A DNA stretch of 64,000 nt, taken from assembly GCA_902522525.1 (NCBI GenBank), contig CABYVU010000002.1, positions 45,560-109,559 on the forward strand. Reading direction: 5' to 3'. Every line of letters starts with the position of its first letter. Position 1 is the first letter of the stretch. The translations under genes were made by a program, and so were the position numbers. The notes under the pieces were generated by a model, which worked only from the letters and a program-made list of their open reading frames with translations, was not told where the DNA came from and ran no database searches. Source of the stretch: an uncultured Pelagibacteraceae bacterium. Its GTDB lineage: Bacteria > Pseudomonadota > Alphaproteobacteria > Pelagibacterales > Pelagibacteraceae. Shown one piece after another: positions 2,551 to 50,026 of this stretch.

Positions 2551-2570
2551 AGTACTTGTCTAGTTGTATA
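2551..2570. promoter_or_regulatory. Candidate PhnF operator (agtacttgtctagttgtata)
   Basis: ACTTGTCTAG half-site with TTGT-CTAG-TTGT repeat in the phnF/phnG divergent intergenic region; resembles the style of HutC/PhnF-family operators but is imperfect. Confidence 0.3.
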
Positions 2571-2575
2571 TTATT

Positions 2576-3019
2576 ATGAAAAATGAATCAAGAAAACAAT
2601 GGTTAAGTTATTTATCAACAGCAGATGAAAATTATCTAATATCGCTTTGGGACAATTTAAATATGAAAATAGAATATAATTGGTTAAGAGAACCTGAGAT
2701 TGGCAGTGTTATGGTTCAAGGAAAAGCAGGCGTCACAGGTGATAATTTTAATGTTGGAGAAGTAACTATAACGAGATGTTCATTAAGTTTAGATAAAAAA
2801 ATTCAAGGACATGGTTATGTTCAAGGTAGAAATAAATATAAATCCAAAATTGCAGCTTTGTGTGATGCATTGATGCAAACTGAAAAAAAAGAAATAATTA
2901 AAAGAAATATAATTGATAAATTAATTAAATATAAAAATAACAAAAGAAATGAAATATTATCTAAAACAGAAGCTACTAAAGTTGATTTTTTTACCTTGGT
3001 AAGAGGTGAGGATAAATAA
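2576..3019 (+). CDS. phnG: C-P lyase (alpha-D-ribose 1-methylphosphonate 5-triphosphate synthase) subunit PhnG
   Basis: REPEIGSVMVQGKAGVTGDNFNVGEVTITRCSL..GHGYVQGRNKYKSKIAALCDALMQ; first gene of phnGHIJKL. Upstream TTG at 2564 is a less likely start. Confidence 0.9.
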   Translation: MKNESRKQWLSYLSTADENYLISLWDNLNMKIEYNWLREPEIGSVMVQGKAGVTGDNFNVGEVTITRCSLSLDKKIQGHGYVQGRNKYKSKIAALCDALMQTEKKEIIKRNIIDKLIKYKNNKRNEILSKTEATKVDFFTLVRGEDK

Positions 3020-3022
3020 TCT

Positions 3023-3577
3023 ATGGAAGTTGTTTCTAAAAAAAATAATTCTCAAACAAGTGCTGATTATTTTAGAAGTATTTTGTTTGCAACTTCATAT
3101 CCTGGTTCGATCGAAATATTAGACAGTATAAATTCGCCTTCAAAAATGTTTTCAGCCAGTTGTTCAATTATAAAAACTTTTTGTGACAGTTATTCGAATA
3201 TTTTTTTAGGTCGTGATATTAACAATCCAGAAACTATTGATTGGATTAAATTTAATACAGGTGCAAATATTACAGATAAAAAAAATGCAAATTTTGCAAT
3301 TGGTATTTGGGATGATCTTTTACCATTAGATGAATTTAAAAAAGGGGACGACCAAAATCCTGATCAATCGTGCACTATTATTTGCCAGTCTAAATTTGAA
3401 AAACCAAATGCCATAATTACTGGTCCTGGTATTAAAAGTTCTAAAAGTATATTTTTACCTGATAGAGAGATTATAAAAAAAAATAACCAGCAATTTCCAT
3501 TAGGACTTGATTTTTATTTTGTTGATAATGATAAATTTTATTCAATACCAAGATCATTGAAAATAGGAGAGCTATAA
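3023..3577 (+). CDS. phnH: C-P lyase subunit PhnH
   Basis: Position between phnG and phnI; YFRSILFATSYPGSIEILD..; TGPGIKSSKSIFLPDREIIKKNNQQFPLGLDFYFV. Confidence 0.87.
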   Translation: MEVVSKKNNSQTSADYFRSILFATSYPGSIEILDSINSPSKMFSASCSIIKTFCDSYSNIFLGRDINNPETIDWIKFNTGANITDKKNANFAIGIWDDLLPLDEFKKGDDQNPDQSCTIICQSKFEKPNAIITGPGIKSSKSIFLPDREIIKKNNQQFPLGLDFYFVDNDKFYSIPRSLKIGEL

Positions 3578-3578
3578 A

Positions 3579-4658
3579 ATGTATGTATCAGTAAAAGGTG
3601 GGGAAAAGGCAATAAATAACGCACATTCCTGGTTATCCGAAATAAGAAGAGGGGATGTAAATATAGCAGAACTAAATATTAAACAAATTAGTGAACAACT
3701 AACTTTAAGTGTTGATAGAGTTATGTCAGAAGGATCTTTATATGACAAAGATTTGTCTGCTCTTGCAATCAAACAGTCTAGAGGTGACTTGATTGAAGCA
3801 ATTTTTCTAATGAGAGCCTATAGAACTACTCTACCTAGAATTGGTTCAAGCAAACCTATCGAAACTGGCAAAATGTTATGTCTAAGAAGAATATCTGCAA
3901 CATTTAAAGATATCCCAGGTAAACAAAAGTTAGGCCCAACATTTGACTACACACACCGTTTACTTGACTTCAAACTTCTTGCTGATGGTGAGTATGAAAA
4001 AGCTAAGATTGAAAAATATGATGATAAAGAAATCCCGCATGTTTTAAGCTTTTTAAATAAAGAAGGATTAATTCAGAAAGAAATACCTAGTGGCAAAACA
4101 TCTAAAGATATTACAAGAAACCCAATTAATTTTCCTTTAACAAGATCTGAACGATTGCAATCTCTTTCAAGAGGAGATGAGGGTTTTCTTCTTGGTTTAG
4201 CTTACTCAACACAGAGAGGTTATGCTAGAAACCATGCATTTGTTGGTGAATTAAGAACTGGTTACGTTGAGGTTCAATTTGAAATTCCAGAATTAGGTAT
4301 AGAAATAAATATTGCTGATGTCATGTTTACTGAGTGTGAGTCAGTAAACCAATTTAAAGGTAGTAAAAAAATACCTGCTCAATTTACCCGTGGATATGGT
4401 TTAGTTTTTGGTCAATTAGAGAGAAAAGCTATTTCTATGGCTTTGGTTGACAGATCAATGAGATGGAAAGAATTTGGTGAGGAGTACTTAGGTGTTGCTG
4501 CTCAAGATGAAGAATTTGTTATATCTCATTGTGATAATATTCAAGCCACAGGTTTTTTAGAACATATCAAATTACCTCATTATGTAGATTTTCAGGCGGA
4601 ATTGGATTTAGTAAGAAAAATTAGAGAAGAGTATAAAAAAAATGAACAACGTACTTAA
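3579..4658 (+). CDS. phnI: C-P lyase subunit PhnI
   Basis: MYVSVKGGEKAINNAHSWL..; ISEQLTLSVDRVMSEGSLYDKDLSALAIKQSRGD; operon context. Confidence 0.93.
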   Translation: MYVSVKGGEKAINNAHSWLSEIRRGDVNIAELNIKQISEQLTLSVDRVMSEGSLYDKDLSALAIKQSRGDLIEAIFLMRAYRTTLPRIGSSKPIETGKMLCLRRISATFKDIPGKQKLGPTFDYTHRLLDFKLLADGEYEKAKIEKYDDKEIPHVLSFLNKEGLIQKEIPSGKTSKDITRNPINFPLTRSERLQSLSRGDEGFLLGLAYSTQRGYARNHAFVGELRTGYVEVQFEIPELGIEINIADVMFTECESVNQFKGSKKIPAQFTRGYGLVFGQLERKAISMALVDRSMRWKEFGEEYLGVAAQDEEFVISHCDNIQATGFLEHIKLPHYVDFQAELDLVRKIREEYKKNEQRT

Positions 4659-5523
4659 ATTTAAAAATAAAAAAAATACTGTTGCAGCTCAAGATGAAAT
4701 TTATAATTTTGCTTATTTAGACGAAAATACAAAAAGAATGATAAGAAGAGCTTTGATTAAAGCTCTTTGTATACCAGGTTATCAAGTTCCATTTTCATCT
4801 AGAGAAATGCCTATGCCATACGGATGGGGAACAGGAGGGGTTCAAGTAACATCGTCATGTTTAACAACTGACGATGTGATAAAAGTTATTGACCAAGGAG
4901 CAGATGATACTACAAACGCAGTTTCAATTAGAAATTTCTTTAAAAAAACTGCTAATATTAAGACCACAGAAAAAACAAGCCAAGCTTCGATAATTCAGAC
5001 AAGACACAGAATTCCAGAAGAAAAGTTAAAAGAAAAACAAATACTTGTTTATCAGGTTCCAATACCAGAACCTCTTGCGTTTTTAGAACCAAGATATCAA
5101 GAAACTAAAAAAATGCATGCACTATCAGAATATGGAATTATGCATGTAAAGTTATATGAAGATATTACCAAAAATGGTCATATAGAAACAGCATATGCTT
5201 ATCCGGTAAAGACAAATGATAGATATATAATGGACCCATCACCTATTCCAAAATTTGATAACCCAAAAATGAACAATAACCCTGCTATTCAATTATTTGG
5301 AGCAGGAAGAGAACAAAGAATTTATGCAATACCACCATATACTGAAGTAACGAGTCTTGATTTTGAAGATTATCCATTTGATCCCTCAAAGGCACCTCAT
5401 AAATGTTCTATTTGTGGATCAAATGAGAGTTTTTTAGATGAAATAATTACTGATGATGACGGTAATAGATCATTTATATGTTCAGATACAAATTATTGTA
5501 ATCAAAGAATGGAAAATAATTAA
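4642..5523 (+). CDS. phnJ: C-P lyase radical SAM subunit PhnJ
   Basis: ALCIPGYQVPFSSREMPMPYGWGTGG (catalytic Gly region) and C-x2-C-x21-C-x5-C near the C-terminus (CSICG..FICSDTNYC). Confidence 0.95.
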   Translation: MNNVLKFKNKKNTVAAQDEIYNFAYLDENTKRMIRRALIKALCIPGYQVPFSSREMPMPYGWGTGGVQVTSSCLTTDDVIKVIDQGADDTTNAVSIRNFFKKTANIKTTEKTSQASIIQTRHRIPEEKLKEKQILVYQVPIPEPLAFLEPRYQETKKMHALSEYGIMHVKLYEDITKNGHIETAYAYPVKTNDRYIMDPSPIPKFDNPKMNNNPAIQLFGAGREQRIYAIPPYTEVTSLDFEDYPFDPSKAPHKCSICGSNESFLDEIITDDDGNRSFICSDTNYCNQRMENN

Positions 5524-6291
5524 ATGCAACCAATTTTGTCAGTTCATAATTTAAACAAATATTACGGTAATCAAGTGGGATGCAAAAATATGAATTTGAC
5601 ATTATATCCTGGGGAAGTCGTTGGTGTAGTAGGAGAATCTGGCTCAGGAAAAACAACTTTTATAAATTCCATATCAGGCAATCTTATTCCTGATAGTGGA
5701 AAAATCTTAATTGAAACAGGTAATGAAACGATTGATTTTCTAGAAATATCTGAGTCATTGAAAAGGTTATTGATAAGAACTGAATTAGCTTTTGTTCACC
5801 AAAATCCTAGAGACGGTTTAAGATTAGATGTAAGTGCTGGTGGAAATATTAGTGAAAGATTAATGTCGATTGGACAAAGAAATTATGGAAATATTAGGCA
5901 AACTATTTTTAAATGGTTAGATAAAGTAGAAATCGATAAAAGTAGAGTAGATGATTTTCCAAGAACATTTTCTGGTGGAATGTTGCAAAGATTACAAATA
6001 GCAAAAAATTTGGTTACGAGTCCTAAAATAATTTTCATGGACGAACCAACAGGAGGTCTTGATGTTTCTGTTCAAGCAAAAATTTTAGATTTGTTAAGAA
6101 AATTAGTTAGAGAATTAAATTTATCAGTTGTAATCGTTTCTCACGATTTAGCAGTGATTAGATTGTTAGCTGATAAAATTATTGTTATGAAAAATGGGGA
6201 GGCTGTTGAGTCTGGACTTTGTGATCAGGTATTAGATGATCCGCAACATTCTTATACTCAGTTATTAGTTAGTTCAGTATTACAGGTTTAA
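5524..6291 (+). CDS. phnK: Phosphonate C-P lyase system ATP-binding protein PhnK
   Basis: ABC ATPase motifs GESGSGKTT, SGGMLQRLQIA, IIFMDEPTGGLD; operon position. Confidence 0.92.
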   Translation: MQPILSVHNLNKYYGNQVGCKNMNLTLYPGEVVGVVGESGSGKTTFINSISGNLIPDSGKILIETGNETIDFLEISESLKRLLIRTELAFVHQNPRDGLRLDVSAGGNISERLMSIGQRNYGNIRQTIFKWLDKVEIDKSRVDDFPRTFSGGMLQRLQIAKNLVTSPKIIFMDEPTGGLDVSVQAKILDLLRKLVRELNLSVVIVSHDLAVIRLLADKIIVMKNGEAVESGLCDQVLDDPQHSYTQLLVSSVLQV

Positions 6292-6293
6292 AA

Positions 6294-6971
6294 ATGATTG
6301 AACTAAATAAAATTACAAAAAAATTTACACTTCATAATCAGGGCAAAACAAACATATTAGTTTTTAATAATTTGAATTTGAAAATTAATCCTGGAGAAAT
6401 TGTAGCGTTAACAGGACCATCAGGTGTTGGAAAGTCTAGTATTTTAAAAATGATTTATGGAAACTATGTTTTTCAATCAGGACAAATTAAAATTAATAAT
6501 CACAACATAGATCATACATATCCGAGAAATATTATTGAACTTAGAAAAAATATAATAGGATATGTTAGTCAATTTCTAAGAGTGATACCTCGTGTTCCTA
6601 CAATTGAAATTGTTATGGAGCCCTTATTAGAAATAAATTCAGATCAAGATGAAGTTCGTGAAAAAGCTGAAAAAATTTTACTAAAACTTAATATAGATAA
6701 AAACTTATGGAATTTATCGCCACTAACTTTTTCAGGTGGAGAACAACAAAGAGTTAATGTTGCTAGGGGACTGATTAGAAATTATCCATGTTTATTACTA
6801 GATGAACCAACTGCTAGTTTAGATAGTGTTAACAAAGATATTGTTTTGAATTTGATTAATGAAAAAAAGGATAGTGGATCTTCAATAATTGGTATTTTTC
6901 ATGATGAATATTCACGTAAATATTTAAATGCTAGGGAAATAGATATTACAAAAATATCAGATGCAAAATAA
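6294..6971 (+). CDS. phnL: Phosphonate C-P lyase system ATP-binding protein PhnL
   Basis: ABC ATPase motifs GPSGVGKSS, SGGEQQRVNVARG, LLLDEPTASLD; operon position. Confidence 0.92.
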   Translation: MIELNKITKKFTLHNQGKTNILVFNNLNLKINPGEIVALTGPSGVGKSSILKMIYGNYVFQSGQIKINNHNIDHTYPRNIIELRKNIIGYVSQFLRVIPRVPTIEIVMEPLLEINSDQDEVREKAEKILLKLNIDKNLWNLSPLTFSGGEQQRVNVARGLIRNYPCLLLDEPTASLDSVNKDIVLNLINEKKDSGSSIIGIFHDEYSRKYLNAREIDITKISDAK

Positions 6972-7497
6972 CGGTCAGCTTATCGTAGTCGTTGGACCAT
7001 CAGGATCAGGAAAAGATACTTTATTAAAAAAAGTAATTAAAAAAATTCCTAATTCCATTTTGGTAAAAAGGTACATTACTAGGAAAAAAGATATTAAAAA
7101 TGAAGATCATTACAGCATATCAATTAAAAATTTTGAAGATAAGATTTTAAAAAAACATTTCTTTGTTTACTGGAAAGCTCATGGTTTTTCATACGGTATT
7201 CCATTTAAGGAAATAAAAAAAATAGAGGAAGGTAAAACAGTAATTTTTAATGGATCAAGAAAAGTACTTTTTAAAGTAAAAAAAAAAGTTAATAACGTTA
7301 AAATAATTAATATTATTGCCCCATCAACAATTATTAAAAAGAGACTTGTAAATCGAGCTAGAGAAGACAAAAAATCAATTAATAAAAGGATAAAAAGAAA
7401 AATTAATTTACTACCGAAAAATATAATTACTATAAATAATAATAAATCAATAGCTATAGGTGCAAATAAATTGAAAAAAATAATTTTAGCTAAGTGA
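6961..7497 (+). CDS. phnN: Ribose 1,5-bisphosphokinase PhnN
   Basis: Guanylate-kinase-like VVVGPSGSGKDTLL, RYITRKK, KAHGFSYGIP; operon context; overlaps the phnL end. Confidence 0.9.
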   Translation: MQNNGQLIVVVGPSGSGKDTLLKKVIKKIPNSILVKRYITRKKDIKNEDHYSISIKNFEDKILKKHFFVYWKAHGFSYGIPFKEIKKIEEGKTVIFNGSRKVLFKVKKKVNNVKIINIIAPSTIIKKRLVNRAREDKKSINKRIKRKINLLPKNIITINNNKSIAIGANKLKKIILAK

Positions 7498-8199
7498 AAA
7501 ATTTTCTAAATTCTCAAACATTCCTTTTTGGTTTTCACCAAATATATATATTTTATCAAAATTATTTATTTCATTTAAAATGATTTCTTTGTTTCTTTCA
7601 ATTTTTTTTAACTCAAGGTACAATTTGTTTCCTGTGACCTCTGATGCAAGGGTCATATGGAAATTAAATTCTGACATTAAATAGGGGTATCCCCATTTAT
7701 ATAAAATATTTAATTGTAATTTACTTAGTTTAGAGGGATTTCTTCTATCAATTTCTTTTTTTGTAAGAGGTGACCTAAATTTAAATAATTCTCTAACTAG
7801 TCTATTTGATAAATTATTAATGTTATTATTTTTTTTATTTTGAACAAAAGCATAAAAATTATTCATTTTTTTTAATTTAAATTTATAAAATTTAAATTTT
7901 TTGAATTTTTTTGCTATTTCCTCAGTTTTTTTAAATAATGTATTGGTACTATAATTTTTGTTTAGTTTAAAAGGAGGAATAAGTGTGCCGTGAAACCCAT
8001 ATTTCTTTGCAATTAAAACATTTTTATCTATGTTTATTAAGTTTTTAATTCCAAATCTGTTTAGATAATTAATTCTATGTTTGTTATTTATTAACTTTGC
8101 ATTAAGTGGATCCCAACCGAACCAATATCTGCCAAATTCTTCTAGACTACTCTCTTTTGGAGGTGCATAATAAATAGCGTATCTAGAATATTTTTTCAT
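7486..8199 (-). CDS. DUF1045 phosphonate-metabolism-associated protein, 2H phosphoesterase-like
   Basis: RYAIYYAPPKESSLEEFGRYWFGWDP start and two H-x-T motifs (GFHGTLIPPF, NFHMTLAS); located between phnN and phnM. Confidence 0.8.
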   Translation of the reverse strand: MKKYSRYAIYYAPPKESSLEEFGRYWFGWDPLNAKLINNKHRINYLNRFGIKNLINIDKNVLIAKKYGFHGTLIPPFKLNKNYSTNTLFKKTEEIAKKFKKFKFYKFKLKKMNNFYAFVQNKKNNNINNLSNRLVRELFKFRSPLTKKEIDRRNPSKLSKLQLNILYKWGYPYLMSEFNFHMTLASEVTGNKLYLELKKIERNKEIILNEINNFDKIYIFGENQKGMFENLENFSLS

Positions 8200-8274
8200 A
8201 ATTCAACTTATAATACTTATATAAATTTTCTGTAATTTAAAATATTTGTAACAATTCATGTGTATTAAAAAGTG

Positions 8275-9411
8275 ATGCATGAATATATTTTAAACAATGC
8301 CATGATAATTAAAAAAGATGAAATCGTTCATGGTCATATCAGGATTAAAGATAACAAGATTGTCGATATAAGTAGTGGATTAAGTAATAACAAAAGTTCT
8401 ATAGACTGCGAAAAAGATTATATTTCGCCAGGATTGGTTGAATTACATACTGACAATCTTGAAAGACACATGACACCAAGACCTAAAGTTTCATTTCCAG
8501 TAGAAAATGCAATTTTATCTCATGATAGAGAATTAGCATCTGTTGGAATAACTACAGTTTTTGATGCATTAAGAGTTGGTTCTATTGAAAAAACAGGAAA
8601 ATATAAAAAATATGCAAAAAACTGTTCGGATATAATTTCAAGTTTTAAAAAAGATAATATTCTCAAGATTGATCACAAAATACATTTAAGAGCTGAAACT
8701 TGTTCGGAGAATTTGATTGATGAATTAGACGAATACAATGAAACTCACGATGTAAAACTGATTAGTATAATGGATCATACACCAGGTCAGAGGCAATTTA
8801 GAGTTATAGATAAGTACAAAGAATATCTTTCAATTAAACACGGTATGACAGAAAATGAAATGGAAATTCATTTTGATCACTTAAAAAATCTTCAAAAAAA
8901 AAATAGCAAGAAACACATAGATAAAATTTTAGAATTTAAATCATCATATGATTGTATTTTGGCTAGTCACGACGATACCACAGAAAATGATGTTCATAAT
9001 TCAAATAAATATGGAGTAAAATTGGCTGAATTTCCAACAACATTAGAAGCAGCCAAAACTTCTAAAGATTACAATATTAAAGTTATGATGGGATCTCCTA
9101 ATTTACTTAGAGGAGGTTCACACTCTGGCAATATATCTGCAAAAGAACTCTTAGAAAATGATTGTTTAGATATCTTAAGCTCAGATTATATTCCATCATC
9201 ATTAATTATATCTGTTGTCAAATGGGGTTTAGAAATTGATAATCTTCCAAAAGCATTTGCAGCAGCTAGTCACGCTCCGTCTATAGCTACAAATTTAAAT
9301 GACAGGGGTTCCATTGACAATAATAAGAGAGCAGATTTAATAAGGTTTAAAATTTATCAAAATTTACCAGTTGTAAAAAATGTTTGGTCAAACGGAATCC
9401 AAGTAAGTTAA
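8275..9411 (+). CDS. phnM: Alpha-D-ribose 1-methylphosphonate 5-triphosphate diphosphatase PhnM
   Basis: Amidohydrolase-type: YISPGLVELHTDNLERHMTPRPKVSFP, SIMDHTPGQRQFR, MGSPNLLRGGSHSGN. ORF-track start at 8272 is GTG; ATG at 8275. Confidence 0.94.
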   Translation: MHEYILNNAMIIKKDEIVHGHIRIKDNKIVDISSGLSNNKSSIDCEKDYISPGLVELHTDNLERHMTPRPKVSFPVENAILSHDRELASVGITTVFDALRVGSIEKTGKYKKYAKNCSDIISSFKKDNILKIDHKIHLRAETCSENLIDELDEYNETHDVKLISIMDHTPGQRQFRVIDKYKEYLSIKHGMTENEMEIHFDHLKNLQKKNSKKHIDKILEFKSSYDCILASHDDTTENDVHNSNKYGVKLAEFPTTLEAAKTSKDYNIKVMMGSPNLLRGGSHSGNISAKELLENDCLDILSSDYIPSSLIISVVKWGLEIDNLPKAFAAASHAPSIATNLNDRGSIDNNKRADLIRFKIYQNLPVVKNVWSNGIQVS

Positions 9412-48502: not shown

Positions 48503-49256
48503 TTCACATTGTCACCTAGATCACGAACCTTTAGTTCAAAATATTGAGGATATTTTAGCAAAATGTAAAAAGGAGGGTGTTCAAAAGTTATTAACAATAT
48601 CAACAACATTAAATGGGTTTCCTAAAATTTTAGAGATTATAGAAAAAGATAAAATGATATATGGAACTTTTGGTATTCATCCCCATGAAACTAACAATGA
48701 TCAAATATCAAAAGATGAAATAATTAAAAAAATTAACACTAACAATAAAATAATTGGAGTAGGTGAAACAGGTTTAGATTTTTATTATAATAATAGTGAC
48801 AAAGATAAACAAATAGTAAGTTTTAAAAATCATATAGATGCAGCATTAGAATTAGATATACCCTTAATTGTTCATTCTAGAAATGCTGAAGCTGAAACAT
48901 ATGAAATATTAAAAAATTCTAACAAGAATTTAAAAATACTTATGCATTGTTTTACGGGATCCTTATCTTTTGCATTCAAATTAATGGAACTTAACACTTA
49001 CTTTTCGGCAAGTGGTATTATTACATTTAAGAATAGCACTGATCTTCAAAATACTTTTAAAGAATTACCATTAGAAAGATTGTTAATAGAAACGGACAGT
49101 CCTTTTTTAGCACCTGAACCAATGAGAGGTAAGAAAAATGAACCATCTTTTGTTCGTTACACATTAAAAAAATTATCAGAATTAAAAAATGTTGATATGG
49201 GAGAACTGGATAAAATTACTACTGAAAATTTTAACAGATTATTCTTTAATAAATGA
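48495..49256 (+). CDS. tatD: TatD-family deoxyribonuclease
   Basis: MIDSHCHLDHEPL; GETGLDFYYNNSDKDKQ; LIETDSPFLAPEPMRGKKNEPSFV. Confidence 0.93.
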   Translation: MIDSHCHLDHEPLVQNIEDILAKCKKEGVQKLLTISTTLNGFPKILEIIEKDKMIYGTFGIHPHETNNDQISKDEIIKKINTNNKIIGVGETGLDFYYNNSDKDKQIVSFKNHIDAALELDIPLIVHSRNAEAETYEILKNSNKNLKILMHCFTGSLSFAFKLMELNTYFSASGIITFKNSTDLQNTFKELPLERLLIETDSPFLAPEPMRGKKNEPSFVRYTLKKLSELKNVDMGELDKITTENFNRLFFNK

Positions 49257-50026
49257 GGATAAAATTTACCATTTTAGGTTGTGGAAGCTCTTTAGGTATA
49301 CCCCGAATCGATGGATACTATGGAAGTTGTGATCCAAAGAATAAAAAAAATATACGAACAAGATGTTCAGCTCTTATAAGCTCTAAAAACCTAAACATTC
49401 TAATTGATACATCTCCAGATTTAAAATCTCAATTATTAAAAAATAAAGTTAAAAATATTGATACAGTTTTTTATACTCATTCTCATGCTGATCAAACACA
49501 TGGAATAAATGAGTTGAGGGTTTTTTCTTTAAAAAATAAAAAAAAAATACCAATTTATGCAGATAAAATTACAAAGGAAAATCTTAAAAATACTTTTGGT
49601 TATTGTTTTAAAGATTATAAAAATTATCCATCTATACTTGACGCCAGAATATTAAAGAAAAAACATTTACTGAAAGACTCAAAAAAACAAATTATTATTA
49701 AATCATTAAAGGTTCATCATGGTTCAATAAAAAGTATTTGTTATATAATTAATGACAAATGCGCTTATGCACCTGATGTGAACAAAATTGATAACAAAGA
49801 TTTAAAATATCTTAAAAATTTAAAATACCTTATTGTAGATTGTTTAAGATATAATTTTCATCCAACCCATTTTAATTTAGAGGATGTTTTGAAATTAATT
49901 AATAGAATTAAGCCAAAGAAAACAATTCTAACAAATTTAAGTAACGAAATTGACTATAGTGAAATAAAAAAATTGCTACCTAAAAATGTAACTCCTGCAC
50001 ATGATGGCTTGACTATATTAATTTAA
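49253..50026 (+). CDS. MBL-fold metallohydrolase, PhnP-like
   Basis: FTILGCGSSLGIPRIDGYYGSCDPKNKKNIRTRCSALI; THSHADQTHGI; GLTILI end; overall layout like PhnP phosphodiesterases. Confidence 0.82.
   Translation: MRIKFTILGCGSSLGIPRIDGYYGSCDPKNKKNIRTRCSALISSKNLNILIDTSPDLKSQLLKNKVKNIDTVFYTHSHADQTHGINELRVFSLKNKKKIPIYADKITKENLKNTFGYCFKDYKNYPSILDARILKKKHLLKDSKKQIIIKSLKVHHGSIKSICYIINDKCAYAPDVNKIDNKDLKYLKNLKYLIVDCLRYNFHPTHFNLEDVLKLINRIKPKKTILTNLSNEIDYSEIKKLLPKNVTPAHDGLTILI

Follow-up and report, generated by a model that had tools for sequence, protein, structure and literature searches.

The C-P lyase locus of this uncultured Pelagibacteraceae bacterium encodes a DUF1045 protein that is very probably a metal-independent 2H phosphodiesterase, taking the place of PhnP in the pathway. 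The gene lies near the start of the window (the whole stretch of 64,000 nucleotides analysed here), at 7486-8199 on the minus strand. It encodes 237 amino acids, is assigned to the DUF1045/TIGR03223 2H phosphoesterases by PF06299, TIGR03223, an AF2 model and Foldseek, and is the candidate phosphodiesterase for 5-phosphoribosyl 1,2-cyclic phosphate (PRcP). There is direct support for the gene itself, its fold, the conservation of its motifs, its linkage to phn genes, its co-occurrence with PhnN and its strict exclusion of PhnP.

The window opens within the phn locus, whose core order is phnFGHIJKLNM. On the minus strand, the transporter ATPase gene phnC (867-1691; TIGR02315, 320.7 bits, above cut-off) is followed by phnD, phnE1 and phnE2, which continue past the window start according to the upstream ORFs, and the regulator gene phnF (1799-2509) falls just below its cut-off (TIGR02325, 145.9 vs 156.8 bits). 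The plus strand carries phnG (2564-3019; TIGR03293, above cut-off), phnH (3023-3577; TIGR03292, above cut-off), phnI (3579-4658; recognized by position and homology to other phn loci, with no match to an NCBIfam model), phnJ (4642-5523; PF06007, E 1e-143), encoding the C-P bond cleaving subunit and source of the cyclic phosphate, phnK (5524-6291; TIGR02323, above cut-off) and phnL (6294-6971; TIGR02324, above cut-off). These are followed on the same strand by phnN (6961-7497; TIGR02322, 157.7 bits, above cut-off), whose ribose 1,5-bisphosphokinase would use the proposed product, and phnM (8272-9411; TIGR02318, 411 bits, above cut-off), encoding the RPnTP diphosphohydrolase. The DUF1045 gene meets phnN tail to tail, sharing 12 bp with it (7486-7497), and is divergent from phnM. 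The starts of these two genes are separated by a 72-bp intergenic region (8200-8271), which presumably holds both promoters. The sequence-only reading had placed a DUF1045 2H-like gene between phnN and phnM in a locus with PhnN but no phnP. PF06299 and the neighbour profiles agree with that layout, TIGR02322 identifies phnN, and neither the locus nor the 7.6 kb preceding the window contains phnP. Within this lineage the phn genes form an accessory island: both phnJ and DUF1045 are absent from four near-complete relatives, two of the same genus (G207 and G297) and two of the same family (G098 and G375).

The ORF matches PF06299 with an E value of 1.2e-34 and 120 bits, against a gathering score of 24.3. 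Its match to TIGR03223, 'putative phosphonate metabolism protein', spans positions 1-226 of 228 (E 2.8e-51), although the score of 174.3 bits is below the cut-off of 248.95, which marks it as a divergent member of the family. It shares a full-length match, common motifs and a phnM/phnN-adjacent context with the TIGR03223/PF06299 proteins, called 'rcsF' in the phn operon literature, but is divergent (23-32% identity), AT-rich and below the TIGR03223 cut-off. The overlap with phnN, the position inside a full phn locus and the class-wide conservation of the family establish it as a genuine gene rather than a reading frame that arose by chance. A search of viral contigs found no relatives of the protein.

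Two H-x-T motifs had been noted in the protein from its sequence, and both stand out in an alignment of 56 homologues as H70-G-T72 (7984-7992, minus strand) and H181-M-T183 (7651-7659, minus strand). R6, Y67, H70, T72, P76, R142, G170, Y171 and H181 are invariant in this alignment, and T183 is conserved in at least 90% of the sequences. The protein thus carries the paired conserved H-x-T/S motifs by which the 2H phosphoesterase superfamily is recognized. Its AF2 model is of high confidence (pLDDT 94.3, pTM 0.91) and has the 2H fold, with TM scores of about 0.4-0.5 when normalised to query length. The top Foldseek matches in the PDB are all 2H phosphoesterases, among them YjcG (E 1.4e-6), the Arabidopsis Appr>p cyclic phosphodiesterase (7e-5) and E. 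coli LigT (3e-4). PDB sequence searches with the single protein and with the family profile returned no significant relative, and the link to 2H enzymes comes from fold comparison only.

The predicted role as PRcP phosphodiesterase agrees with the protein's fold and active site and with phnN as its partner gene. In the proposed scheme, PhnJ would release PRcP, the two H-x-T motifs would grip the cyclic phosphate and activate water, and the ring would be opened at the 2-oxygen side to yield ribose 1,5-bisphosphate, which PhnN would then phosphorylate to PRPP. We infer the substrate, the regiochemistry of the product and the metal independence alike. A chemical parallel is offered by the CPDases of Arabidopsis and yeast, members of the 2H superfamily that share the fold (Foldseek matches 1jh6 and 1fsi) and the paired H-x-T motifs and convert ribose 1'',2''-cyclic phosphate to the 1''-phosphate. 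By analogy, the same ring opening applied to PRcP would give ribose 1,5-bisphosphate, on which PhnN acts. The CPDases are, however, only about 7-10% identical to the DUF1045 protein and act on an ADP-ribose cyclic phosphate rather than PRcP. PhnP, the phosphoribosyl cyclic phosphodiesterase of E. coli, would share with DUF1045 both the reaction and the position in the pathway ahead of PhnN, but it has an unrelated metallo-beta-lactamase (MBL) fold, depends on metal and is never found together with DUF1045 in our sample. PhnPP is an alternative post-PhnJ enzyme that provides another route for PRcP (PMC8774927); it differs in that its product is ribose 5-phosphate, so that PhnN is bypassed.

The distribution of the two families supports replacement. 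Our class sample of 385 alphaproteobacterial genomes contains 65 with PhnJ, and a phylum-wide draw supplied a further 49 alphaproteobacteria and 25 other proteobacteria with PhnJ, for 139 PhnJ-positive genomes overall. DUF1045 is found in 117 of them and true PhnP in 19, while none has both and three have neither. It had been suggested that DUF1045 could supply a missing cyclic phosphodiesterase step, a proposal to be abandoned if DUF1045 genomes always carried a phn-linked phnP as well; true PhnP occurs in 0 of the 117, and this exclusion, together with the fold, the active site and the partnership with phnN, supports the proposal. When weak matches are counted, DUF1045 is present in 64/65 PhnJ-positive genomes of the class sample but in only 17/320 of those lacking PhnJ; PhnP scores above its cut-off in 0/65. 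The 49 alphaproteobacteria of the phylum draw give 49/49 for DUF1045 and 0/49 for PhnP. A Fisher test over all genomes gives p of about 1e-19, a value that ignores shared descent and is not to be taken literally: PhnJ-positive alphaproteobacteria share descent, and the 112 alphaproteobacterial genomes with DUF1045 and without PhnP are therefore non-independent. Among the 25 non-alphaproteobacterial genomes, 19 have PhnP only, four DUF1045 only, two neither and none both (Fisher p 0.0012). Since a single family (f193) includes genomes of both types, the exchange of DUF1045 and PhnP is more than one old split.

In 50/65 PhnJ-positive alphaproteobacteria the genes for DUF1045 and PhnJ are no more than 12 kb apart, and of 55 genomes with both DUF1045 and phnN, 39 have the two within 2 kb of each other; PhnN itself is present in 55/63 alphaproteobacteria with PhnJ and a standard DUF1045, and missing in the other 8/63. 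Matches of about 50 bits in three genomes of the HIMB59 genus (G030, G259 and G337) form a distant, separate clade unlinked to phn and were not counted as phn-type, and the match in G115 is sub-threshold. Two PhnJ-positive genomes with neither enzyme, G720 and G724, were considered as cases of a third enzyme and rejected, as they look like recent losses of phnP. The operon of G720 ends in a shortened phnN; G724 has no phnP, while a sister genome of the same genus has one between phnN and phnC.

DUF1045 is not exclusive to C-P lyase, as 14 of the 385 alphaproteobacteria have a standard DUF1045 without PhnJ, and without PhnN. A PhnM match is found in 10 of these 14 (seven over the cut-off) and PhnN in none. 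In three genomes (G040, G164 and G262; loci L034, L038 and L042), phnM and DUF1045 are adjacent without the C-P lyase core or phnN. The DUF1045 proteins of PhnJ-less genomes are dispersed over the DUF1045 tree rather than confined to a single clade, and they keep both H-x-T motifs. One could therefore suppose that the role of DUF1045 is broader or different, the clearing of PRcP or a related cyclic phosphate that arises outside C-P lyase, with its use in phn loci as one application. As an account of the present gene we consider this unlikely: the concentration of the family in PhnJ-positive genomes speaks against it, and the strict exclusion of PhnP is hard to account for unless DUF1045 does PhnP's job in phn loci. 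A role outside C-P lyase may well be additional rather than alternative; that DUF1045 there clears PRcP formed by PRPP decay or by a PhnM-linked reaction is our guess.

A TIGR03307 search of the whole assembly (1.14 Mb in 34 contigs, 80% complete) gave no match over the PhnP cut-off, and the DUF1045 protein itself is not matched by this profile. The only, weak, match in the genome is an MBL-fold protein encoded at 49253-50026 on the plus strand (66.6 bits vs a cut-off of 272), in the gene order metG-tatD-MBL and unlinked to phn, which the sequence-only reading did not mention. It is very improbable that this protein performs the PhnP step and leaves DUF1045 to do something else, even though a sub-threshold TIGR03307 match is present in 65/65 PhnJ-positive alphaproteobacteria. 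The protein is far under the PhnP cut-off and closer to other MBL families (NF038231, 229 bits), homologues occur in 48/65 sampled alphaproteobacteria without PhnJ, and in none of the PhnJ-positive alphaproteobacteria does a match of this type lie within 30 kb of phnJ. It lacks the Cys-rich zinc site of PhnP (the CxCxxC segment), and two His residues of the PhnP metal site are replaced by Gln and Asn (HxHxDH to HSHADQ, LTH to LTN), replacements that it has in common with two congeners without phn. Its nearest structures are MBL proteins of Brucella rather than PhnP. The weak alphaproteobacterial matches were accordingly rejected as hidden PhnP, being sub-threshold, never near phnJ and common without phnJ, with the copy in the window lacking metal ligands. 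We judge the tatD-linked protein to be a housekeeping protein and not the missing PhnP. With two metal His residues altered, it is possibly a metal-altered or non-catalytic form.

That PRcP is instead handled by a second, different 2H phosphodiesterase encoded some 6 kb ahead of the window (L096:782-1501, about -6778 to -6059; DUF1868, PF08975 '2H-phosphodiest', E 2e-23) is scarcely credible, for although it lies within the same phosphorus-related region, its gene is outside the phn block and next to a glycerophosphodiesterase-like ORF, and DUF1045 alone tracks PhnJ. Just beyond the phn transporter genes there is also an HD-domain protein near the TIGR03276/PhnZ-type phosphonate oxygenases (L096:2830-3384, about -4730 to -4176).

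The idea that DUF1045 stands in for PhnP has already been published, and our analysis restates a known hypothesis; its additions are a survey of more genomes, the evidence from fold comparison and the dismissal of the MBL protein as a rival. As related in PMC10574752, the 2009 PhnP paper (Podzelinska 2009) found 54 operons via PhnM, with phnP in 27 of them and a 2H gene, 'rcsF', in 16 operons without phnP. Martinez 2013 (PMC3840354) proposed the 2H protein as a replacement for PhnP and reported growth of E. coli BW16787 (delta-phnHIJKLMNOP) on methylphosphonate when it carried a fosmid of Rhodobacteraceae origin that contains the 2H gene but lacks phnP. Since the fosmid carries many genes, this rescue is indirect support that is not specific to the gene. 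PMC8235418 names DUF1045 as the proposed PRcP phosphodiesterase and credits a review by Hove-Jensen, and a DUF1045 protein is induced alongside PhnI, PhnJ, PhnL and PhnM under phosphorus stress (PMC10132767). The literature searched, with most subscription journals outside its reach, yielded no enzyme assay for a member of the DUF1045 family. PhnP is missing from the majority of C-P lyase loci in alphaproteobacteria, marine methane producers among them, and as a result annotation pipelines either report a gap in the pathway or wrongly give the name PhnP to a housekeeping MBL protein. If DUF1045 is the PRcP phosphodiesterase, the pathway is closed in these organisms and the family gains a function.

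Only two PhnJ-positive genomes of the class sample, G161 and G259, are without a phn-type DUF1045. They have phnGHIJKLM, no phnN and a nearby gene for a PF01261 TIM-barrel protein, and strong matches to this protein among the 385 alphaproteobacteria are found in exactly these two. In a genome scan, HIMB59-type marine genomes yielded 14 copies of the gene, of which 13 have phn genes within 10 kb (the PF01261 loci are L072-L085, from HIMB59-order genomes, L051:12666-13568 and L057:16970-17857). The phn transporter blocks of the window and of the HIMB59 islands are homologous, with PhnC and PhnD 72-73% identical and two conserved neighbours, and related islands thus have either phnN and DUF1045 or the TIM-barrel gene. 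A text search of PMC10734472, a paper on the HIMB59 islands, found no mention of the gene.

The nearest NCBIfam model to the TIM-barrel protein is the phosphodiesterase CbiR (33 bits, below cut-off). AF2 models the protein only weakly (pLDDT 68.5), and ketose 3-epimerases predominate among its fold matches. It has conserved residues resembling those with which endonuclease IV binds metal. Together these features no more than hint at phosphodiesterase activity. We offer as a tentative possibility that the step after PhnJ has at least three unrelated solutions, namely PhnP, DUF1045 and, in HIMB59, a xylose-isomerase-like TIM barrel that would process PRcP and bypass PhnN, with DUF1045 also serving outside C-P lyase together with PhnM. 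If the TIM-barrel lead is true, this third solution belongs to abundant open-ocean bacteria. The TIM-barrel gene, in HIMB59 islands without phnN, phnP or DUF1045, is a previously unreported candidate and possibly of greater interest than the claim for DUF1045. In phnN-less operons, a calcineurin-like metallophosphoesterase gene is found directly 5' of phnG (L051:6161-7015; also in L072, L073, L076 and L078).
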